Assembly (NCBI GenBank): GCA_024275095.1
Contig: JAJRZV010000040.1
Span: forward strand, 1-27,933
DNA: 27,933 bases
Reading direction: 5' to 3'
Origin: a bacterium
GTDB taxonomy: Bacteria > JAJRZV01
Shown here one piece after another: positions 1 to 10,274 of this stretch. Both the position numbers and the translations under genes were made by a program. Below the pieces are notes generated by a model. It had not been told where the DNA came from. It was given only the letters and a program-made list of their open reading frames with translations, and made no database searches. Each line of letters begins with the position of its first letter. Position 1 is the first letter of the stretch.

Positions 1-915
1 CAGGCGGAGAAGAAGCGTTACTTTACGAAGGAAGGGCACACGTACCGGATCAAAAAAGATTTTCGCGCCCAGGTGTTTTTTGTCCCGGTTAATGTTGTGG
101 AGTGGAAAACATATCCGACAATTTACGCTCCTTTTGATGTGATTTTTTTCCGTAACGTGCTCATTTACATTGCACCGGAATTTCAGCGGCGCGTGATGAA
201 GAACATCGTGAATACACTCCTGCGCGACAAAGGATTTCTTTTTCTGGGTCATGCGGATTTCCTTGACGAAGCAGCATTTCAGCTTTCGAGGATGTCATTT
301 GAAAACGTGTATGTGTTTCAAAAGAAGGGAAGAGTTGAGAAAGAGACGGTCAGAACGAGGGTAAGAAAATCTCAGGTTAAAAGAAAAGAAGGTCTTAAAT
401 CACCAGCGTCAGCAGATGACTCTCGCAGCGCGCTTCTTTTTGAACGCATGAAAGAGTGTGTAAAATCTGGCAGGGGAGAGAGCCTCGCTCGTCTCGTGAA
501 CTCTGTTAATGTAAAAAATCTTGGGGCAAAAGAAGTGCACCTGTTAAATTTTTTCAAGGCGTATGCAGCAATAATCAAAGGAAAAGTTGAAGAGGCTTCT
601 CAGCTTCTGGAAGAGGCGGCGCAGAATGGGGCACTTATCCCTGAGATCTATTACCTCATGGGATTTATCCATTCAGAGCGCGGAGATTTAATGCTGGCCC
701 TCAAGGAATTGCAGAAGGCCGTGTACCTGAACGAGAGGTTTGTCCCTGCGCATATATTGCTTTACAAACTGTTTCAGCAACTGGAAATGGAGCGTGAAAA
801 GAAGCGTGAAGAAAAGCACCTCAGGGATTTTGCCCGGGGAAAAGTGGAACCTGACTGGGGATTACTTCCGGCGGTGTCTTTGTCGGATATAATACATCCG
901 GTTATAAAGGAATAA
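1..915 (+). CDS. cheR: Chemotaxis protein methyltransferase CheR with C-terminal TPR region (5' partial)
   Basis: The reading frame is open from base 1, so the N-terminus and part of the SAM-binding fold lie upstream; 304 residues are visible. CheR methylates glutamates on chemoreceptors with S-adenosylmethionine. The visible first third has the CheR C-terminal lobe signature: a YF..-G.-Y-R-K motif, then FDVIFFRNVLIYI (family form FDLIFCRNVLIYF), then an LFLGHADFL-like segment. After a basic linker (about residues 108-130) comes a helical region with at least one clear TPR (about 215-265, LMLALKELQKAVYLNE). CheR proteins with TPR tails are typical of alternative chemosensory systems such as Frz. 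The GTG at 73 is internal and not the true start. It is first in the operon as seen, 7-13 bases before cheW. The family call is certain; the partner receptor is not visible. Confidence 0.93.
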   Translation, partial: QAEKKRYFTKEGHTYRIKKDFRAQVFFVPVNVVEWKTYPTIYAPFDVIFFRNVLIYIAPEFQRRVMKNIVNTLLRDKGFLFLGHADFLDEAAFQLSRMSFENVYVFQKKGRVEKETVRTRVRKSQVKRKEGLKSPASADDSRSALLFERMKECVKSGRGESLARLVNSVNVKNLGAKEVHLLNFFKAYAAIIKGKVEEASQLLEEAAQNGALIPEIYYLMGFIHSERGDLMLALKELQKAVYLNERFVPAHILLYKLFQQLEMEREKKREEKHLRDFARGKVEPDWGLLPAVSLSDIIHPVIKE

Positions 916-925
916 GGGGTTAGTG

Positions 926-1405
926 GTGGTGAAAGGTCAAGGAGCAGATGAATTTGTTAAAGATGTTTTTAAAAGTCTGCCTCAGGAATATGTGGTGGTG
1001 GAGGTGGGTGGGCAGAGGTACGCGTTTGAAAGAGAATATGTGAGTTACGTGCTTGACGAGCTCAAACTGAGCCGTGTGCCCGCATCGCCTCCTTTCCTCG
1101 CAGGGATGGGATTTCATACGGGAACGGTCATACCGGTTGTTGATATGAAGGTAATATTCGGCAGCGAGAAGGGAGTGTCCAGGAATGAAAAACGGAAGAT
1201 TCTCGTCATTGGTGCAGATGGATTGCGTGCCGGCGTGATGGTTGATGGGGTTCCAGAAATTGCAGAGGTGAGTGGAGAGGCTGTGAGAGAGATTGAAGGA
1301 GAGAATAAGGAGTTTGTTTTGTGTTTTCTCAAATACGGTGATGAGCACATCCCGTGTGTGGATGTGCGTGCACTTCTTCAATATTTTAAGGAGCGTATGA
1401 AGTGA
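926..1405 (+). CDS. cheW: CheW-like coupling protein
   Basis: A protein of about 159 residues that would couple receptors to the CheA kinase. The beta-rich CheW domain covers most of the length: YVVVEVGGQRYAFE near the N-terminus, then AGMGFHTGTVIPVVDMK (family form GlvnlrG.ilPVidLr), then an ILVIG...GVMVDGVPEI core (family form vvVd.Vsev), and a C-terminal DVRALL helix. Three successive in-frame GTG codons (923, 926, 929) are possible starts. A Shine-Dalgarno AAGGGG at 914-919 overlaps the cheR stop and best fits 926 (6-base gap) or 929 (9-base gap). The gene lies between cheR and a response regulator and overlaps the latter, so it is translationally coupled. It is the only stand-alone CheW here; a second CheW-type domain sits inside CheA. 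Confidence 0.92.
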   Translation: MVKGQGADEFVKDVFKSLPQEYVVVEVGGQRYAFEREYVSYVLDELKLSRVPASPPFLAGMGFHTGTVIPVVDMKVIFGSEKGVSRNEKRKILVIGADGLRAGVMVDGVPEIAEVSGEAVREIEGENKEFVLCFLKYGDEHIPCVDVRALLQYFKERMK

Positions 1406-2121
1406 TGGCTGAGTATAAGGGAAAGATTCTTATAGTGGATGACAGCGTTGTGGTACTGAGTATGCTGAAGGACAGGTTTGTTCAGGAGGGCTACAGGGTA
1501 TTCCTGGCACGTAACGGTGTCGAGGGTCTTCAGCTCGCGTTGCGTGAGCACCCTGATGTTATTATTTCAGACATTGAAATGCCGGAAATGGACGGGTGGG
1601 AGTTTTGTGAACATGTGAGAGCACTGCCTGAAACCACCAACATCCCCTTTATATTTCTTACCCAATTCAAAGATGTTCCCATGAAGGTCAGAGGGTTGAG
1701 GTTGGGTGCAGATGACTATATTACGAAACCTTTCTCAAAGGAGGAGGTTGCCGCACGTGTGGATGCCATTATCCGCAAAAAGAAAGAAATGGAAAGCAAA
1801 ATTCTCATGTCAGGTAGCCTGAAGGCCATGGGTCTTCCTGAGCTTTTACAGGTGTACGAAATGAATAAAAAGACCGCCGTGATGAAGTTCACAGGCGGAC
1901 ACAGTGGAGAAATATATTTTTTAAATGGTGAAATCGTGCATGCAGTCACTCCACAAAATCAGGGGGAGGAGGCTATTTACGAAATGCTGAAATATCAGGA
2001 TGCTGATTTTGTCATCGCTCCGTATCCCGTGGACATGGAAATCACCCGGACCGTACATCGTTCTGTTCAGGACCTTGTGCTTGAGGGTGCCAGGCGCATG
2101 GACGAAGAGGGGCGGTCGTGA
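1405..2121 (+). CDS. Response regulator: receiver domain fused to DUF4388 (PatA-like)
   Basis: A two-domain regulator of 238 residues. Residues 6-122 are a receiver: acidic pair D12-D13, phosphoacceptor D56 in IISDIEMPEMDG, and K107 in ADDYITKPF, so it should be phosphorylated by the adjacent CheA. Residues about 130-225 match the DUF4388 pattern: SGSLKAMGLPELLQVYEMNKKTAVMKF..., then GEIYFLNGEIVHAV, then GEEAIYEMLKYQDADFVI. DUF4388 is found in PatA-like output proteins and lacks a DNA-binding helix-turn-helix, so a protein-protein or c-di-GMP-related output is more likely than promoter binding; that is inference. ATG 1405 forms TGATG with the cheW stop. GTG 1402 (AAGGAG 8 bases upstream) is an equally possible start. 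With no CheY visible, this is the best candidate for the output of the pathway. Confidence 0.9.
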   Translation: MAEYKGKILIVDDSVVVLSMLKDRFVQEGYRVFLARNGVEGLQLALREHPDVIISDIEMPEMDGWEFCEHVRALPETTNIPFIFLTQFKDVPMKVRGLRLGADDYITKPFSKEEVAARVDAIIRKKKEMESKILMSGSLKAMGLPELLQVYEMNKKTAVMKFTGGHSGEIYFLNGEIVHAVTPQNQGEEAIYEMLKYQDADFVIAPYPVDMEITRTVHRSVQDLVLEGARRMDEEGRS

Positions 2122-4283
2122 TGGAGAATCAGGAGTATATTGACCTTTTCAAAGAAGAAGCGGCGGAACACTTGCAAAGCCTGGAGTCCATTCTTTTGAA
2201 AATGGAGACGGAAGGTGGTGGAGAAGAGTACGTAAAAGAGGCAAAACGCAGTGCCCATACAATTAAGGGATCGGCACGGCTGGTGGGCCTTGAAGAGATC
2301 GGGGCGGTTGCTCACAGGATGGAAGATGTGTTTAAGGCCATGGAGGAAGGGAAAATTAAACCAGAAAGAGACGTCATCACTGCGCTTTTGAAAGGTCTCG
2401 ACACAGTAAAGAGGATGCTCGAAGGGGATACCTCAGAATATGAGAACACGATCAATACTCTTTCAATGCTTATCGCGGATGATCAGGTTCAGAAAAGCCG
2501 TGGAAAGAGTAAAAGAGCGGATAAAAGCACAAGGCGTACCCCCACGGAGAAAGTACGCGCGGATTCGACGGAAGAGCAAGCACAGAAAAAAAAAGAGCGT
2601 GAACTGAAAAGAGAGTACTTTCGGGTATCTTCTTCCAAAATAGAGAAGCTTCTTAATACGGCAAGTCAGCTCCTTCTTGAGAAGATAGCGTATGAGCAGG
2701 CAGTGGAAGACCTCGAGCTCATTCCACAAACATTTGAACAGGAAGCACTGAAGCGTTTCCCGGATGCTGATAGGCGTTACGTGGAAACCCTCAGACGCAT
2801 GCTGGAAGAGCAAATTCAAGAAAGGACATCAGAAATTGAAAAGCGTCTTGAAACCCTGAGTTCCAGGGTATTCGAAGTTCAATATCAGGCCCTTTCTTTA
2901 AAGGTTGTGCCTTTTTACGTCATCACCGATGAACTGCGGCGATATGTGCGTGATACAGCAGCCTCACTGGACAAAACCGTGGTTTTTCACGTACGGGGTG
3001 AGGACGTGGAAATTGACCGGGCGGTTCTGGAACAGCTGAAGCCAGCAATAATGCATATCATTAACAACTCTATTACCCATGGTGTTGAGTCGGTGGAGGA
3101 AAGAGAGACCGCCGGGAAAAGTCCCGAAGGTAACGTTTTTTTACGAATATATCCACGTGGTCCGCGCATCGTTATTGAGATAGAGGATGATGGTCGGGGA
3201 ATTGACGTTGATAAGCTGAAGGACAGGGCTCTTGAGAAGGGGATAATAGATGATTTCCGTTACGAAAGCATGAGCGATGAAGACGCACTGAATCTTATAT
3301 TCGTTCACGGGCTTTCTACCGCGGAGGAGTTATCGCAGATTTCCGGTCGTGGTGTGGGTATGGATGTGGTGCGCGAGAACCTGTCACGAATGGGTGGGAA
3401 CATAAAGGTTGAGTCGCAACGCGGTAAGTACACCAGGTTTGTACTGGAGGTGCCCCAAACATCCTCCGTTATAAAGGGTTTATGGGTCAATATCGGCGGC
3501 GAGCTTTTTGTCGTTCCGGTGTACTTTATTCATCGGGTCATACGCTTGAAGGACTACGAATCGTTCATTGAAAAGGATACCAGGTATGTGAATGTCGAAG
3601 GTCGTTTCGTGGAGGTGATAGATCCGCTGCTGGTGTTTGGGTGGGGTGAGTATGACGCACCCACAAAGTACGGTATGGTTTTGAGGGTTCCGGCAGGTCT
3701 GTTCTGTGTGTACATTGACGATTTTATGGAGGAGGAGGATGTACTTGTCAGATCACCCGGCCCTGTTCTTGAACGCAATCCGTACATTGCCGGCGTTGTG
3801 GTTGGAGGGGACGGTATCCCCCATGTGATCCTTGATGTTTTCCAGTTGCGAGAGGCACGCGCGCGGACCATAAAACCCCGGACAGAAGGGTTTGAATTCG
3901 AGAAGATACTCGCAAAACGCAGCCTCAAGATCCTTTTAGTGGACGATTCTGTTACCACACTTCGCTTTGAGAAGGACGTTCTTGAAGATGCCGGTTACAC
4001 TGTTGTTACCTCCCTCGATGGTGAAGAAGCCTGGGACAGGTTCCAGCAAGAAGAATTCGATCTCGTGGTGACCGATATTCAAATGCCGCGCATGAACGGC
4101 CTGGAGCTTACTCGTCGTATAAAATCCCATGAAAAGGCAGTTCCTGTAATCGTTGTGTCTTCACTGGGTACGGACGAGGACGTGAGAAAGGGCATGGAAG
4201 CGGGTGCCGATGCTTACATTGTAAAGAAGGATTTTACTCCGAGGTCCTTCTTGCAGAAGGTAAGACAAATGATCGGTGAGTAA
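2121..4283 (+). CDS. cheA: Hybrid chemotaxis histidine kinase CheA with C-terminal receiver
   Basis: A 720-residue phosphorelay kinase. In order: an HPt domain (1-105) with phosphorylatable H46 in AHTIKGSA; a charged linker (about 125-170) with no recognisable P2 domain; a dimerisation and helical region (about 170-270); a HATPase domain with N box HIINNSITHGVE, G1 EDDGRGID and G2 GRGVGMDVV; a CheW-like domain (about 450-585); and a receiver at the end with D652 in VVTDIQMPRMNG and a terminal YIVKKDF. The CheA-receiver layout is that of FrzE/ChpA-type systems, where the fused receiver acts as modulator or phosphate sink. ATG 2121 (TGATG overlap, GAGGGG 8 bases upstream) is preferred over GTG 2118. 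An A9 run at 2586-2594 lies in the linker (see findings). CheB starts 2 bases after the stop. Confidence 0.96.
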   Translation: MENQEYIDLFKEEAAEHLQSLESILLKMETEGGGEEYVKEAKRSAHTIKGSARLVGLEEIGAVAHRMEDVFKAMEEGKIKPERDVITALLKGLDTVKRMLEGDTSEYENTINTLSMLIADDQVQKSRGKSKRADKSTRRTPTEKVRADSTEEQAQKKKERELKREYFRVSSSKIEKLLNTASQLLLEKIAYEQAVEDLELIPQTFEQEALKRFPDADRRYVETLRRMLEEQIQERTSEIEKRLETLSSRVFEVQYQALSLKVVPFYVITDELRRYVRDTAASLDKTVVFHVRGEDVEIDRAVLEQLKPAIMHIINNSITHGVESVEERETAGKSPEGNVFLRIYPRGPRIVIEIEDDGRGIDVDKLKDRALEKGIIDDFRYESMSDEDALNLIFVHGLSTAEELSQISGRGVGMDVVRENLSRMGGNIKVESQRGKYTRFVLEVPQTSSVIKGLWVNIGGELFVVPVYFIHRVIRLKDYESFIEKDTRYVNVEGRFVEVIDPLLVFGWGEYDAPTKYGMVLRVPAGLFCVYIDDFMEEEDVLVRSPGPVLERNPYIAGVVVGGDGIPHVILDVFQLREARARTIKPRTEGFEFEKILAKRSLKILLVDDSVTTLRFEKDVLEDAGYTVVTSLDGEEAWDRFQQEEFDLVVTDIQMPRMNGLELTRRIKSHEKAVPVIVVSSLGTDEDVRKGMEAGADAYIVKKDFTPRSFLQKVRQMIGE

Positions 4284-4285
4284 GG

Positions 4286-5302
4286 ATGCCCAAGCGTGTT
4301 CTCATAGTGGATGACTCCCGGTTAATGCGAGAGTACGTGAAGGGAATGCTGGAGGAATCCGGAGAGTTTCAGGTGGTGGGAGAAGCTGAAGATGGCATGG
4401 ATGCCCTGCAAAAAGTGAAAGTTGTAAAGCCTGATGTTGTTCTCATGGACGTGATTATGCCGCGTATGAACGGTCTGGAAGCGACCAAACGGATTATGGA
4501 AAAGTATCCGGTTCCTATTTTGATATTCAGTTCTACAGTGGAGGAGAAAGATGTGGAGTATGCCTACAACGCGGTGAAAATGGGTGCGGTGGATGTAATG
4601 GCGAAGCCTGATTCTTCCACTATCGAGGAGGACGAATTCCGCAAAGAATTTATAAGGCGGTTGAAGATTGTTTCCAATGTGAGCGTGCTCAGGCGTAGGG
4701 GGGGGCAGAGGAAAAAGGTCGCTTCACCGGCGAAGGTGACTCACACCAAGGAGGTTTTTGCCATCGGAGCATCAACAGGAGGCCCTGCTGCTGTTAGTTT
4801 CGTGTTACAAAAGATGAGCAGTGGTAACTTTTTCGTGCTGATTATTCAGCATATGGCAAAAGGTTTTGACAGGGGATTTGTTAACTGGCTCCGGGGAGAA
4901 ACAGGATGGGACGTGCGCCTCGTAGAAGAAGGCATGAGAATCAGAAATGGTGTCGTGTACGTTGCTCCCTCGGGATACCACACTGTACTCAAAGGCAGGA
5001 AGCTCTATCTCGATGACTCTCCACCTGTAAAAAGTTGCAAACCATCCATTGATGTGGGATTTCGTTCGGTCGCAGAGGAGTACGGAAGACGTGTTCTCGG
5101 AGCCATCCGTACAGGAATTGGCGATGACGGTGTAGAAGGTTGTCGAAGTATTAAAGAAAAAGGCGGCTACATCATAGCTCAGGACGAAACTTCGTCGGTC
5201 GTTTACGGGATGCCCCGTGCAGCACTGGAAGCAAAAGTTGTGGACACCGTGCTTTCGCTTGATAAAATACCAGAATTGGCCGGAGATTTACTGAAAGATT
5301 AG
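4286..5302 (+). CDS. cheB: Protein-glutamate methylesterase/glutamine deamidase CheB
   Basis: A 338-residue response regulator that removes methyl groups from chemoreceptor glutamates, opposing CheR. Receiver: residues 1-122, D9-D10 acidic pair, D55 in VVLMDVIMPRMNG, K107 in VMAKPDS. Linker: about 123-155, basic. Methylesterase: about 156-338 with the triad S163 (AIGASTGGP), H189 (IIQHMAKGF) and D281 (RTGIGDDG). Length and order match family norms. It starts at ATG 4286 directly after the cheA stop, with GGTGAGTAAGG as ribosome-binding region. Phosphorylation of D55 by CheA is expected to activate the esterase. A G8 tract at 4698-4705 lies inside the linker (see findings). No receptor gene is visible in the window, so the substrate MCP must be encoded elsewhere. 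Confidence 0.96.
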   Translation: MPKRVLIVDDSRLMREYVKGMLEESGEFQVVGEAEDGMDALQKVKVVKPDVVLMDVIMPRMNGLEATKRIMEKYPVPILIFSSTVEEKDVEYAYNAVKMGAVDVMAKPDSSTIEEDEFRKEFIRRLKIVSNVSVLRRRGGQRKKVASPAKVTHTKEVFAIGASTGGPAAVSFVLQKMSSGNFFVLIIQHMAKGFDRGFVNWLRGETGWDVRLVEEGMRIRNGVVYVAPSGYHTVLKGRKLYLDDSPPVKSCKPSIDVGFRSVAEEYGRRVLGAIRTGIGDDGVEGCRSIKEKGGYIIAQDETSSVVYGMPRAALEAKVVDTVLSLDKIPELAGDLLKD

Positions 5303-5313
5303 GGAAATTGTTG

Positions 5314-5820
5314 ATGCGGAAACGAGATTTTTTAAAACTGAATCTCACCCGAAGGGAAGCTCTCACACTGGGAATTGTCGCCGCGGGATATTCTCTTTTC
5401 ACTTCCGTGGTAAGGGTTCGAGCGTCCGAAAAGGCTGGCACACCTGCAACCATGACAACGATTCTTAAATATGCTGCAGATGCGTTGCTCCCCCCGGGAG
5501 GTTCTCTGCCGCAGGCACCTTCTCAACTTGGTGTACCGGAGGAAATTCTTCAGTTTGTTTCCAAGCAGCCACCGAGTGTTCAGAAAGATTTTCGATCAGC
5601 TTTAATGGCTCTTGAAGTAATGCCTATCCTGGAGCTTCGTTTTAAACGCTTCACCAGCATGTCTCCGCAGGAGCGCGTACAATATTTTGCTTCCTGGGAA
5701 AAGAGCAGATGGGGGCTTAAGCGAAAGATATTTGTAGCACTTAAAAGTGCAGTAACTTTTGCATACTTCTCGCACCCGGAGGTGTGGGAAAAAATCGGGT
5801 ATGAGGGGCCTCTGATATGA
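5314..5820 (+). CDS. Tat-signal small subunit, gluconate 2-dehydrogenase subunit 3-like
   Basis: A protein of 168 residues. The N-terminus looks like a twin-arginine export signal: R13-R14 in LTRREALTLG, followed by a hydrophobic stretch (IVAAGYSLFTSVV) and a possible cleavage site at VRA-SEK (about residue 37). A second RKRDFLK motif at 2-8 also resembles the Tat consensus. The mature part begins TTILKYAADALLPPGG, like the helical small subunits that accompany membrane-associated GMC dehydrogenases (gluconate 2-dehydrogenase subunit 3 family). The family call rests on this pattern and on the neighbour and is moderate. Start ATG 5314 has AGGG at 5301-5304; TTG 5308 and 5311 are alternatives. 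It overlaps the GMC gene by ATGA, and its likely role is to escort the signal-less GMC subunit through Tat. Confidence 0.68.
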   Translation: MRKRDFLKLNLTRREALTLGIVAAGYSLFTSVVRVRASEKAGTPATMTTILKYAADALLPPGGSLPQAPSQLGVPEEILQFVSKQPPSVQKDFRSALMALEVMPILELRFKRFTSMSPQERVQYFASWEKSRWGLKRKIFVALKSAVTFAYFSHPEVWEKIGYEGPLI

Positions 5821-7355
5821 AAGAACATTCCGAAAAAGGAAAAATCTACGGGCCAGGCGATTACTCCAGGAAGGGTACCACCTACCTTTCAGCTGATGTA
5901 TGCGTTGTGGGGACGGGTTCTGCAGGTGCTGTGGTTGCTGCTGTTCTTGCATCAGCAGGCGTTGATGTGCTGGTCCTCGAGGAGGGGCCCTATTACGCTT
6001 CTGAAGATTTCAATCAACTCGAGCATTTGATGATTCCTGCACTCTACCGTGAGAGTGCGAACCAGATGGAAGAGTGCTTCAACATTTCTGTCATGCAGGG
6101 ACGGTGCGTGGGGGGCAGTCCTGTTGTGAATATGGCTGACTGCGTGATGACCCCGAGACCGGTGCATGAACACTGGATACGATATTTTGGATATGCCGGG
6201 CCATCCTATTGTGAACTTTCAAAAGCAAATGAGATCAATACACGTCGTATGAACGTTAATAAAATTCCAGAAGAAGAACTTAATGAAAACAATCGTCTTC
6301 TCCTTGAGAGCGCTCGTTCCCTGGGCTTATCGGCTCGAACTTTTGAAAACAACAGGGTCAATTGTGTGGGATGTGGTTATTGCCTTATCGGGTGTCATTA
6401 CAGAGCCAAGCAGTCCACGCTTGTGACGTTTGTGGAGGATGCTTTGAAGGATGGGGTGCGGCTTTTTTCCCGTGCGAGAGCCGAAAGATTTGTCTGGACC
6501 AAAGGGCGGGCCCGCGTGCTGGAAGGGGTTTTCTTGGAAAAGGACTCTGATGTTCCCATGGGACGGTTTGAAATAAGAGCACACGAGTTTGTGCTGGCCG
6601 CGGGCGCGATACATTCTCCTCTTGTTTTAATGCAGAGTGGGATCCAAATTGAAGGAATCGGGGATAACCTCTCGTTGCAGCCGCAAATGCCGGTGATGGC
6701 TCTTTTCGAGAAAGAAATTGTGGCTTACAGGGGCATTCCCCAGGCTGCCGTGGTGGATGCTTTTGAAGAAATTGACGATGAGAAGGGACTCAGCGGTTTT
6801 CGTATAGAAGGTATCATGGCGGGGCCAGCCATGAGTTCAAGTTTTGGTCCTGGTTCAGGTCTGGAATTCAAACAATTAATGACACGTTTCCGGCATATTG
6901 CAGCAGCACTGATTCTTTTTCCCGATCGTCCATCAGGGTATGTGAGGGTAAAGGAGCGGGGGAGGGCGCTGATTAAATACCGGTTTTCTGATGAACTCGC
7001 ACGCACCATACGTAAGGGGTTGAAGGAAGCAGCTCGCATTTATCTTCATGCCGGAGCCCGTTTGGTGGCTTTTCCGACGCTTCCGGGAGTTACGGTTAAA
7101 AGTTTAAATGACTTGCATCGTATTGATTCGATCTCCTTTACACCCGCACACGTAAGAATGATTTCCGCCCATCCTCAGGGGACCCTTCGCATGAGCGAGA
7201 GAGGACCTGTCCGCCCTGATTTCAGGCTCAGGGGATTTGAGAATCTTTACGTTTGTGACTCCAGTATATTTCCTACAACCTCTTCATCTCATATCATGCT
7301 GCCCGTAATGGCATACGCACGGGTGGCTGCTGACCGGCTCATTCAGGCTCTCTGA
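5817..7355 (+). CDS. GMC-family FAD oxidoreductase with a four-cysteine iron-sulfur motif
   Basis: A 512-residue flavoprotein. FAD-binding Rossmann motif at 28-56 (VCVVGTGSAGAVVA, ending VLVLEEGP). A second family motif is GRCVGGSPVVNMADC at about 96-109. The C-terminal GMC signature contains H452 (SAHPQGTLRM) and H492 (SSSHIM), near the usual catalytic His positions, within VCDSSIFPTTSSSH. C183, C186, C189 and C193 form CX2CX2CX3C followed by HYRAKQST, resembling the cysteine-rich insert of long-chain-alcohol-oxidase-type GMC enzymes and suggesting a [4Fe-4S] centre. The substrate is unknown; an alcohol or polyol is expected from the family. There is no signal peptide, and the preceding Tat-type subunit overlaps by ATGA, so a co-exported complex is inferred. 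It is the last gene of the operon that begins with the chemotaxis genes. Confidence 0.85.
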   Translation: MKEHSEKGKIYGPGDYSRKGTTYLSADVCVVGTGSAGAVVAAVLASAGVDVLVLEEGPYYASEDFNQLEHLMIPALYRESANQMEECFNISVMQGRCVGGSPVVNMADCVMTPRPVHEHWIRYFGYAGPSYCELSKANEINTRRMNVNKIPEEELNENNRLLLESARSLGLSARTFENNRVNCVGCGYCLIGCHYRAKQSTLVTFVEDALKDGVRLFSRARAERFVWTKGRARVLEGVFLEKDSDVPMGRFEIRAHEFVLAAGAIHSPLVLMQSGIQIEGIGDNLSLQPQMPVMALFEKEIVAYRGIPQAAVVDAFEEIDDEKGLSGFRIEGIMAGPAMSSSFGPGSGLEFKQLMTRFRHIAAALILFPDRPSGYVRVKERGRALIKYRFSDELARTIRKGLKEAARIYLHAGARLVAFPTLPGVTVKSLNDLHRIDSISFTPAHVRMISAHPQGTLRMSERGPVRPDFRLRGFENLYVCDSSIFPTTSSSHIMLPVMAYARVAADRLIQAL

Positions 7356-7533
7356 TTGCACAAAAATGTACAATCGTGCACCTGTATGTCCAAAAAAAAA
7401 GCAGGTATATCAGGTTGAATTGTAAAACCCCGTGAAAAATAAGAATATTTTTGTGCGTTTTCACAGGCACATTTCTTGATGTTTTCCTTTCCGGGTCTTT
7501 TGGTTTATTTACTTCACCTCAGGAGGTGTGAAA
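7356..7533 (+). promoter_or_regulatory. Intergenic leader with several inverted repeats upstream of the radical SAM gene
   Basis: A non-coding stretch of 178 bases, AT-rich compared with its neighbours. From 5' to 3' it holds: TGCAC (7357-7361) paired with GTGCA (7376-7380) around the palindrome TGTACA (7367-7372); an A9 run at 7391-7399; AAAAATA (7435-7441) paired with TATTTTT (7446-7452); and GTGAAAA (7432-7438) paired with TTTTCAC (7458-7464). The last two stems overlap and exclude each other. No U-tract terminator for the GMC gene is evident. I could not identify a convincing -35/-10 pair. An operator or RNA switch is inference only. Confidence 0.35.
7513..7532 (+). promoter_or_regulatory. 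Possible Shine-Dalgarno-sequestering hairpin
   Basis: The near-perfect Shine-Dalgarno AGGAGGTG (7521-7528) of the radical SAM gene is preceded immediately by CACCT (7515-7519), which can pair with AGGTG (7524-7528) leaving a 4-base loop. TTCAC (7513-7517) can alternatively pair with GTGAA (7528-7532). Either stem would bury the ribosome-binding site just before ATG 7534, as in thermosensor or attenuator leaders. The stems are short, so this could be chance. Confidence 0.3.
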
Positions 7534-9237
7534 ATGGGTATTCTTGATTTTGCACGTGTAAAACATGATGAAAACCTGCGTGACCTATATGCATTCGAAC
7601 AGCCTGAGTTTACTCTTACAGGACATGCGATAAAACCTGTCAAAAAGGGCCTCCCAAAAGAAATAGAATCGCTTTGCCCTGAATGTACAAAGGTTATCCC
7701 GGGGATTCTTTACGCAGAAAACGGCAAGGTTATGATGAAAAAGGAGTGCGAAGAACACGGGGTTTTTACTGATGTTTTCTTTGGGGACGTTGATCTTTAT
7801 CTGAAAATGGAAAAATTTCACTTCGGAGACCAAAAAGGGGTTGCCAACCCGGCGATTCCAAATGCAAAGGTATGTCCTCTTCAATGCGGCCTGTGCAACA
7901 TGCACCTCTCTCACAGCGGCCTGCCCATTATAGATATTACCAACAGGTGTAACCTTAACTGTCCTGTATGTTTCGCTCACGCGAACCAGGCGGGATTTCT
8001 CTACGAGGTAAATCTGGATCAGGTGCGGTTTATGCTTGAGACACTTCTGGCACAGAGACCTGTGCCTGCCGACCGCATTCAAATTTCAGGTGGAGAGCCG
8101 ACTATTCATCCTCAGTTTTTTGAAATTGTCAGGCTCGTGAAAGAGATGAATTTTGATTATGTTCAGCTTAATACGAACGGCATCAAGATGGCGGATCTGG
8201 AATTTGCACAGCGGGTGAAGGAGGCAGGTGTTGAAACCCTTTATCTCCAGTTTGACGGGCTCAAGCCAGAGACGTACAGGAAGATCCGGGGCGATGAGAG
8301 AGTCCTTGAGAAGAAACTACAAACTGTGGAGAACTGCAGAAAGGTAGGTATAACCATCGTCCTGGTTCCCACCATTGTGGGTGGAATTAACGACTGCGAG
8401 GTTGGAGCAATTCTCAAGTTCGCCATTGAAAATCACGACGTGATTAACGGGATCGCCTTCCAGCCCGTGGCTATCACCGGCAGAATTAATCGCAAGAAGC
8501 GCCAGGAAATGCGTTATACCCAGGCGGACCTGGCGTATGACCTTAAGGAACAAACAGGAATTGTTGAACCGATGCGTGACTGGTTGCCCCTTGCTGCCCT
8601 TACCCCACTCTCCAAACTGGCTGCTGCTCTTAAAGGCAAGCCGGCTCTTACTATTTCCACTCATCCTCACTGTTCTGGAGGCACTTACCTTTTCATTGAC
8701 TCGAAAGGCCAGGCGTATCCCATCGGAAAATTCATTGATTGCGAAGGCATGCTAAAAGAAGCCGACCGCATTGCCCGTGAAATTAAACCTTCGCGTATCA
8801 AGCTCCTTTCAGAAGCCAAGGCCTTTTTTGCATTGAAAAAGTACTTTAAACAAGATAAGGCTCCTGAAGGGCTTACGTTCGAAATCTTTTTGAAAAGCTT
8901 TGACAGTTATCAGAACAGGAACCTGCGCAAGTCCCAGACAGGCCTCAAAGAACACGGATACCCCACGGTCTTTGCTGCTGCCATGCACTTTATGGATTCC
9001 TACAATTACCTGGTAGAGCGCGTGATGCGCTGTGTGATTCACTATGTGACACCTGACGGGAAACTCTATCCCTTTTGTGCGTACAATTCAGGGCCGTGTT
9101 TCCGTGATCGCGTGGAAGCGCGGTTTCGGCTTTCCGAGGAGGAAACGAAGAGAATCATAGTTCAGGAAAATTATCCTCCGGAACTCCGCAGACTCGCGAA
9201 AAAACTCGGTATGGATGTCCCGGAAACGAGAAGTTAA
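7534..9237 (+). CDS. Radical SAM enzyme, tetraether lipid synthase (Tes)-like, COG1964 type
   Basis: A 567-residue enzyme. Residues 45-80 form a zinc-ribbon/rubredoxin-like knuckle (C48PEC51, C72 in KECEEHG). C114, C118 and C121 (KVCPLQCGLCNMH) precede the core. The radical SAM motif CX3CX2C is C139-C143-C146 in DITNRCNLNCPVCFA, with the SAM-binding GGEPT at 186-190. Further conserved-looking cysteines are C380 (HPHCSGGT), C403, C500 (MRCVIHY) and C515 (LYPFCAYN). The order of a knuckle, CPxxCGxC, TNRCNLxCPxCFA and a C-terminal PFCAYN segment is, from memory, that of the Tes family, which joins two lipid tails by C-C bond formation to make membrane-spanning ether lipids; many members are uncharacterised. 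Bacterial substrate specificity cannot be read from sequence. ATG 7534 has AGGAGG 7 bases upstream. It is a single-gene unit with its own terminator. Confidence 0.78.
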   Translation: MGILDFARVKHDENLRDLYAFEQPEFTLTGHAIKPVKKGLPKEIESLCPECTKVIPGILYAENGKVMMKKECEEHGVFTDVFFGDVDLYLKMEKFHFGDQKGVANPAIPNAKVCPLQCGLCNMHLSHSGLPIIDITNRCNLNCPVCFAHANQAGFLYEVNLDQVRFMLETLLAQRPVPADRIQISGGEPTIHPQFFEIVRLVKEMNFDYVQLNTNGIKMADLEFAQRVKEAGVETLYLQFDGLKPETYRKIRGDERVLEKKLQTVENCRKVGITIVLVPTIVGGINDCEVGAILKFAIENHDVINGIAFQPVAITGRINRKKRQEMRYTQADLAYDLKEQTGIVEPMRDWLPLAALTPLSKLAAALKGKPALTISTHPHCSGGTYLFIDSKGQAYPIGKFIDCEGMLKEADRIAREIKPSRIKLLSEAKAFFALKKYFKQDKAPEGLTFEIFLKSFDSYQNRNLRKSQTGLKEHGYPTVFAAAMHFMDSYNYLVERVMRCVIHYVTPDGKLYPFCAYNSGPCFRDRVEARFRLSEEETKRIIVQENYPPELRRLAKKLGMDVPETRS

Positions 9238-9273
9238 ATTGGGACCCCCAGGGGATGATTTCACGATCGTGGA

Positions 9274-9297
9274 GGGGCGGGGGACCGCCCCTTTTTT
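9274..9297 (+). terminator. Intrinsic terminator of the radical SAM gene
   Basis: GGGGCGG (9274-9280), loop GGGA, CCGCCCC (9285-9291), then six T (9292-9297): a 7-bp, all-GC stem with U-tract 36 bases after the stop codon. A 10-base perfect palindrome CACGATCGTG (9262-9271) lies just upstream. The T-run abuts the stop of the convergent permease gene. Read from the minus strand the stem has no following U-tract, so it is mainly a plus-strand terminator. Confidence 0.9.
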
Positions 9298-9299
9298 AT

Positions 9300-10274
9300 T
9301 TATTGTCCCTTTTCTTTTACTACTAAGGATGCCCGGAGGCTTTCGCCGATAACGTTGAAGGCAATTACCGCCAGTACAATGAATGCCCCGGGAGCAAGGG
9401 TCCAGGGCCGGTCAGCGAGGATGGAGATGTTGAGTGCCTCGGCAAGCATGTTGCCCCACGATGGATCTGGCTCGCGAATGCCGAGCCCCAGCATGCTGAG
9501 CGCTGACTCTCCTAGGATATATGCCGGAATGTTGAGTGTCATCACGACCACTGTATATCCGAGGGTAAGTGGAATGACATGGCGTATGAGGGTGCGTATG
9601 TGACCTGCCCCCATGGCCAGTGAAGCCACCACGTGGTCTGACGTGCGTATGCTGGCAACCATTCCCCTGATGACGCGAGCAAAGCCGGCCCACCCGATAA
9701 AACTGAGTATGAGCACGATAATCAGAAATGTCTGGGCAGATGAAAGCCCTGGTGGAATGACCACTGATAAAGAGAGCAACAGGAAGAATGACGGAAGGGA
9801 CATGAGTACTTCTGTAAGGCGCATGATGAGCATGTCAACCAGACCACCAAAATAACCCGCAATGCCGCCGAAGAGTAACCCCAAAACAGCAGTTATGCAC
9901 ACCCCCACAATGCCGATGCTCAGACTGATACGGCCGCCGTATATGATGCGTGAAAGAATGTCTCTCCCCAGGCTGTCGGAACCGAGAAGAAAGCATGGGC
10001 ATTCACACGAGAGAAGTTTTCCTCTACTGAGTAAGTGAACATTGCATATTCGGCCAGTTTCCCGGTACCCCTCGGGTGTGCGCTGGATTTCGCGCACGTG
10101 GGGCCTGAAGGTGTATCCCCCATCTGTTTTCAGGAAAAAATGTATTCTCATGGGTGGTGCTGCCGGATAACTTCGAAATTGATGCTTATAGCTGTAGGGT
10201 GCCACTATCGGGGCCGCGAGCGCGGAGAAGGCTAGGATAATGAGTATGATCAGAGCCCCCTTTGCTTTCATCAT
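9300..10274 (-). CDS. Peptide-type ABC transporter permease (DppC/OppC family)
   Basis: A 324-residue inner-membrane permease of the dipeptide/oligopeptide/nickel class. One N-terminal membrane segment (about 6-25) is followed by a long periplasmic loop (about 28-97, longer than in E. coli DppC and containing C77, C90, C92 and C94). Then comes the hallmark LGSDSLGRDILSRIIYGGRISL, further membrane spans, and the cytoplasmic EAA loop (LAMGAGHIRTLIRHVIPLTL) that docks to the ATPase. The C-terminus has the family SALSMLGLGIREPDPSWGNML motif. The start at 10274 makes an ATGA overlap with the upstream permease gene, showing tight coupling; ATG 10271 is the alternative. It is the last gene of the minus-strand operon, converging on the radical SAM gene. 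The substrate is probably a peptide but unproven. Confidence 0.9.
   Translation of the reverse strand: MMKAKGALIILIILAFSALAAPIVAPYSYKHQFRSYPAAPPMRIHFFLKTDGGYTFRPHVREIQRTPEGYRETGRICNVHLLSRGKLLSCECPCFLLGSDSLGRDILSRIIYGGRISLSIGIVGVCITAVLGLLFGGIAGYFGGLVDMLIMRLTEVLMSLPSFFLLLSLSVVIPPGLSSAQTFLIIVLILSFIGWAGFARVIRGMVASIRTSDHVVASLAMGAGHIRTLIRHVIPLTLGYTVVVMTLNIPAYILGESALSMLGLGIREPDPSWGNMLAEALNISILADRPWTLAPGAFIVLAVIAFNVIGESLRASLVVKEKGQ

Follow-up and report, generated by a model that had tools for sequence, protein, structure and literature searches.

A full-length tetraether synthase family protein in an isolated bacterial lineage and its probable role in membrane-spanning lipid synthesis

The window analysed here, the whole 27,933-nt stretch of contig JAJRZV010000040.1 (GCA_024275095.1), contains an uninterrupted reading frame on the plus strand (7534–9237) that starts with ATG at 7534, runs for 567 codons and closes with a stop ending at 9237. 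The features of this gene and of its product are the following.

7519..7527, plus strand: ribosome-binding site with AGGAGG core upstream of ATG 7534, from direct sequence reading
7534..9237, plus strand: tes-like gene, tetraether synthase family radical SAM protein of 567 aa (NF045702, 7TOL, AF2/Foldseek)
7675..7758, plus strand: rubredoxin-like Fe site C48, C51, C72, H75, equivalent to C9, C12, C33, H36 of the Methanocaldococcus jannaschii enzyme (MjTes)
7873..7905, plus strand: N-terminal auxiliary [4Fe-4S] cluster C114, C118, C121, H124, equivalent to MjTes C73, C77, C80 and the invariant H83
7948..7971, plus strand: radical SAM CX3CX2C motif C139, C143, C146, equivalent to MjTes C98, C102, C105; PF04055
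8671..8673, plus strand: C380, which probably binds the C-terminal auxiliary [4Fe-4S] cluster, in 81/81 rows and equivalent to Mj C338; role assigned from position
8983..9078, plus strand: M484, C500, C515 of the C-terminal auxiliary cluster; M484 is equivalent to the labile Mj Met439, Cys roles are putative
9271..9294, plus strand: intrinsic terminator of the tes-like gene, a 10-pair GC-rich stem with a 4-nt loop and a T-run

The terminator is real and convincing: the 73-nt region that spans it (9238–9310) folds with a z of –2.2, and the initial annotation, which had given the gene a terminator of its own, is borne out on this point. It had also described a structured leader, and this fails, since the leader folds no better than shuffled versions of itself (z –0.33) and Rfam gave no match; a riboswitch in this position is rejected on the same grounds. 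Of the further claim of a stand-alone gene under separate control, the terminator stands, whereas the separate control is not supported. The tes-like gene is the final one of a same-strand run (chemotaxis genes, then 5308–5820, then 5817–7355), and in the 178-nt gap between the GMC oxidoreductase gene and the tes-like gene a search of the plus strand revealed no terminator and no sigma-70-like promoter, so that co-transcription with the upstream run is possible.

The run opens with a compact chemotaxis-type cluster (73–5302, plus strand), in which CheR- and CheW-like proteins, a response regulator, CheA with a receiver and CheB can be read. The gene directly upstream of the tes-like gene (5817–7355, plus strand) codes for a GMC oxidoreductase that carries the cysteine motif CVGCGYCLIGCHYRAK, and is paired with a gene (5308–5820, plus strand) for a gluconate 2-dehydrogenase subunit 3-like protein whose N-terminus is twin-arginine-like. 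We did not find this pair beside the other bacterial Tes genes compared. Across the bacterial Tes loci compared we found no conserved neighbourhood and no flanking lipid gene in common, and those matches to neighbours in the window that do occur at other Tes loci are response regulators, which are generic.

By every sequence and structural criterion tested, the 567-residue protein is a full-length member of the Tes family. It scores 547.6 bits (E 2.3e–164) against the NCBIfam equivalog model NF045702 ('tetraether lipid synthase Tes'), about 100 bits above the curated cut-off of 450, and the match spans model positions 2–484 of 486. TrsS (NF045646) is the nearest distinct family and is similar in the N-terminal half and the radical SAM core, but the score against it, 330.4 bits, falls far short of its cut-off of 490. 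Pfam reports the radical SAM domain PF04055 and a zinc ribbon whose name goes back to the HMPTM annotation of MJ0619, since given up. The closest solved structure by sequence is 7TOL, the GDGT-MAS of M. jannaschii (427 bits, E 8.5e–127), with 42% identity over 494 residues. No second Tes turned up in the host genome, where further matches were confined to MoaA, an AhbD/NirJ-like protein and one radical SAM protein of a generic kind.

The metal sites tell the same story in more detail. We built an alignment of 81 rows from the protein, 79 relatives and the 7TOL chain, and took the ligand residues from PMC9433317. The motif blocks CPEC...CEEHG, CPLQCGLC..H, TNRCNLNCPVCFA and PFCAYN are all present, match the M. 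jannaschii metal ligands one-to-one and are near-invariant across the 80 relatives; the rubredoxin-like knuckle, CPxxCGxC cluster, core and PFCAYN segment recognised earlier are thus confirmed and can be aligned with MjTes ligands. In the M. jannaschii enzyme Met439 is the labile ligand of the C-terminal auxiliary cluster (PMC9433317). C380, C500 and C515, kept in at least 80 of the 81 rows, are probably the remaining ligands of this cluster, judging from their conservation. Contacts to 5'-dAH/SAM are retained at F147, G187, R252, Q310 and R317 (Mj F106, G145, R210, Q268 and R275). Mj S271 is replaced by Ala, as in most rows of the alignment, and Mj N108 by His (N149H, adjoining the SAM loop), which is found in no other row. 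In all, the protein deviates at eight otherwise near-invariant positions, N149H among them, and the changes are mostly conservative.

The AlphaFold (AF2) model (pLDDT 88.6, pTM 0.89) can be superimposed by Foldseek on 7TOM/7TOL end to end, over 503 columns, with TM 0.80–0.92 and rmsd 2.7–2.8 (TM 0.80/0.91 against 7TOM; TMt 0.91–0.92 against 7TOL/7TOM). No structure besides 7TOM/7TOL comes close in a PDB search with the model. The predicted fold is that of 7TOL/7TOM, lipid-binding C-terminal part included.

Two maximum-likelihood trees place the protein as the deepest branch of a 17-row clade from groundwater 'Deltaproteobacteria', Nitrospirae and unnamed MAGs (support 100/100). This clade falls within the bacterial Tes group that contains Solibacter/Bryobacterales Tes (100/97); the TrsS-like rows lie outside the Tes tree. 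Nearest relatives are bacterial, with 52–56% identity, and identity to acidobacterial and allied rows is 44–51%. Tes of Ca. Solibacter and other Bryobacterales (Acidobacteriota) thus belongs to the same bacterial group and has the same ligands, whereas our protein sits in the separate groundwater clade. The bacterial group as a whole has Thermoplasmata Tes as its sister (100/99) and, when TrsS-like rows serve as the root, is nested among archaeal Tes, although the deeper branching order is less safe as some tree rows are long-branched. The core of the initial annotation, which saw in this diderm bacterium a radical SAM enzyme that couples lipids in the manner of Tes, therefore finds support in the family score, the ligands, the fold and the tree, and the protein falls in the Tes clade with a complete ligand set rather than in some remote clade without these ligands.

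The nesting among archaeal Tes, next to Thermoplasmata, is what would speak for archaeal contamination of the bin, or for a gene recently acquired from archaea that plays no role in the host. We consider this highly improbable. The contig is bacterial in content, with a chemotaxis cluster (cheA), an Mla transporter (mlaE) and recA; GC and GC3 of the tes-like gene resemble those of its neighbours, which together make contamination unlikely, and the bacterial nearest relatives argue in the same direction. The gene content of the contig largely refutes this explanation.

A different possibility is that the Tes fold was shifted to another substrate after transfer to bacteria, for instance a different sp3 C–C coupling or a non-lipid target. 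The function of the bacterial members of the family is putative, a side branch of Tes-like proteins that has lost the N-terminal cluster indicates that the family diversifies in bacteria, and TrsS, with its similar N-terminal half, is a sister family. Every ligand and most of the checked active-site contacts are kept here, however, and the score lies above the Tes cut-off, so that a shift of substrate seems rather unlikely for this particular protein.

Which lipids might be coupled can be approached from the host genome (G000), which is 97% complete at 2.45 Mb. A 16S gene was looked for in it without success, and all 59 relative genomes drawn were 'same domain' only, with no same-phylum member among them; its recA has at most 67% identity to those of the named Tes-bearing genomes tested. 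PlsY is present, and the archaeal GGGP synthase (PF01884) gave no match in this 97% complete genome, which makes glycerol-3-phosphate acyl lipids the likely substrates. Two further proteins, C50 (1412 aa) and C85 (1348 aa), carry two PF01869 (BcrAD_BadFG) domains together with DUF2229, the architecture reported for glycerol ester reductases (Ger) validated by expression (PMC13274423). They are possible GeR candidates by this domain architecture, which is insufficient for assigning function, and the solved-structure search for a GeR candidate gave a match confined to the activase domains. DUF2229 is found in 22/26 Tes-bearing bacterial genomes versus 94/287 sampled others (Fisher 2.8e–7), an enrichment confounded by the shared ancestry of Tes-bearing genomes; in the even sample the figures are 3/3 versus 94/287 (P = 0.037). 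The domain is also non-specific, as one in three of the bacteria sampled has it and so does Lactococcus lactis, and for this reason the GeR identity of the two proteins is putative. Nevertheless, PlsY, two proteins of GeR architecture and no detected archaeal GGGP synthase taken together strengthen the earlier proposal that the organism makes membrane-spanning lipids.

We propose, with a probability of about 0.7, that the product of the tes-like gene joins fatty-acid-based glycerol-3-phosphate lipids at their tail ends, and the host probably makes membrane-spanning lipids. If the protein works as its M. jannaschii counterpart does, SAM would be cleaved at the CX3CX2C cluster, and the resulting 5'-deoxyadenosyl radical would abstract hydrogen from the terminal carbon of the first lipid tail. 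One of the sulphur atoms of the C-terminal auxiliary cluster might then hold the carbon radical until the other tail is activated by a second SAM and the termini are joined through an sp3–sp3 C–C bond. The substrates would most likely be glycerol-3-phosphate lipids whose chains derive from fatty acids and are probably iso-branched, rather than archaeal isoprenoids, and the product would be a diabolic-acid-type membrane-spanning lipid, or a branched tetraether if one or both GeR-like proteins turn esters into ethers. We infer the reaction, the substrate, the product and the expression of the gene alike. Against the proposal count the eight departures from near-invariant residues, the lack of a shared neighbourhood with lipid genes among the loci compared, and the experimental link of bacterial membrane-spanning lipids to a different enzyme, Mss.

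True tetraethers in the host are plausible, though we would put them at somewhat under even odds. A variant of the proposed coupling, differing in product, is that tails are joined to give ester-linked lipids (tetraesters or diabolic acid esters) or, by intramolecular coupling, macrocyclic ones, in either case no tetraethers, while the GeR-like proteins act elsewhere. Ca. Koribacter, Ca. Solibacter and Bacillota are reported to contain membrane-spanning tetraesters, and ester phospholipids are bound by MjTes, which forms macrocyclic archaeol as well (PMC13274423, PMC9433317); that DUF2229 is not specific to ether synthesis points the same way. Against this stand the two BB-type (2x PF01869) proteins, which share the architecture of validated glycerol ester reductases, and we regard this outcome as on the unlikely side, yet as the most serious of the alternatives.

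Comparison with characterised systems helps to place the proposed tail coupling. The M. jannaschii GDGT-MAS/Tes (MJ0619, 7TOL/7TOM) has the fold and the four metal sites in common with our protein at 42% identity, while the latter has a ~39-residue N-terminal extension, Ala for Mj Ser271 and His for Mj Asn108, and belongs to a bacterial host with no detected GGGP synthase, where the substrate is presumably fatty-acid lipids. Mss of Thermotogota and Bacillota, the enzyme tied experimentally to bacterial membrane-spanning lipids, also performs tail-to-tail coupling and is said to have a 'Tes-like catalytic architecture', a likeness that we take from its description (PMC13274423); the similarity cut-off for Mss in that study was E ≤ 1e–30 with >30% identity.

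The host gene is one more member of an already published bacterial Tes family, of which hundreds of copies are known. Zeng et al. (2022) listed 456 bacterial Tes homologues and proposed their role in brGDGT synthesis (PMC8941075). Production of brGDGTs is documented for Ca. Solibacter usitatus, where Halamka et al. consider Tes homologues as the proposed coupling enzymes (PMC10087280). A Black Sea study found Tes in 281 bacterial MAGs and describes its activity as unconfirmed (PMC11868695), and in the literature searched we found no demonstrated activity of any bacterial Tes homologue. The value of the host gene lies in the combination of a complete ligand set, an isolated lineage, no detected GGGP synthase and two partners of GeR architecture in the genome, which makes this organism a good case for testing whether bacterial Tes builds membrane-spanning lipids from fatty-acid tails.

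brGDGTs are widely used for reconstruction of past temperature and pH, and their producers beyond some Acidobacteria, as well as the enzymes involved, are unsettled. Tentatively, and with rather less confidence than in the coupling itself, this lineage, for which no same-phylum relative was drawn, may be an unrecognised brGDGT-type source that uses Tes together with a two-activase glycerol ester reductase. If this reading is true, an archaeal coupling enzyme would be combined with a bacterial ether-forming enzyme, unlike the proposed Mss+Ger route, and a wider set of source organisms would stand behind a major palaeothermometer.

Two minor observations concern other loci. On contig 50 of the host genome, at locus L100 (1883–6121 and 3–1754), one of the two genes of GeR architecture adjoins hsp20- and dnaK-like genes on the opposite strand, by reading. 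In the sample of 290 bacterial genomes taken across families, the Tes cut-off is passed in three, host included, and a separate long-branched Tes-like group occurs in five: L106 (1252–3933, minus strand), L107 (1303–3333, minus), L108 (1300–3378, plus), L109 (1312–3228, minus) and L110 (1108–3246, minus). These proteins score below the Tes cut-off and are without the N-terminal CPxxCGLCxxH cluster; they retain the rubredoxin, radical SAM (CNMMC[DE]PC) and C-terminal motifs, and MWF replaces MHF in them.
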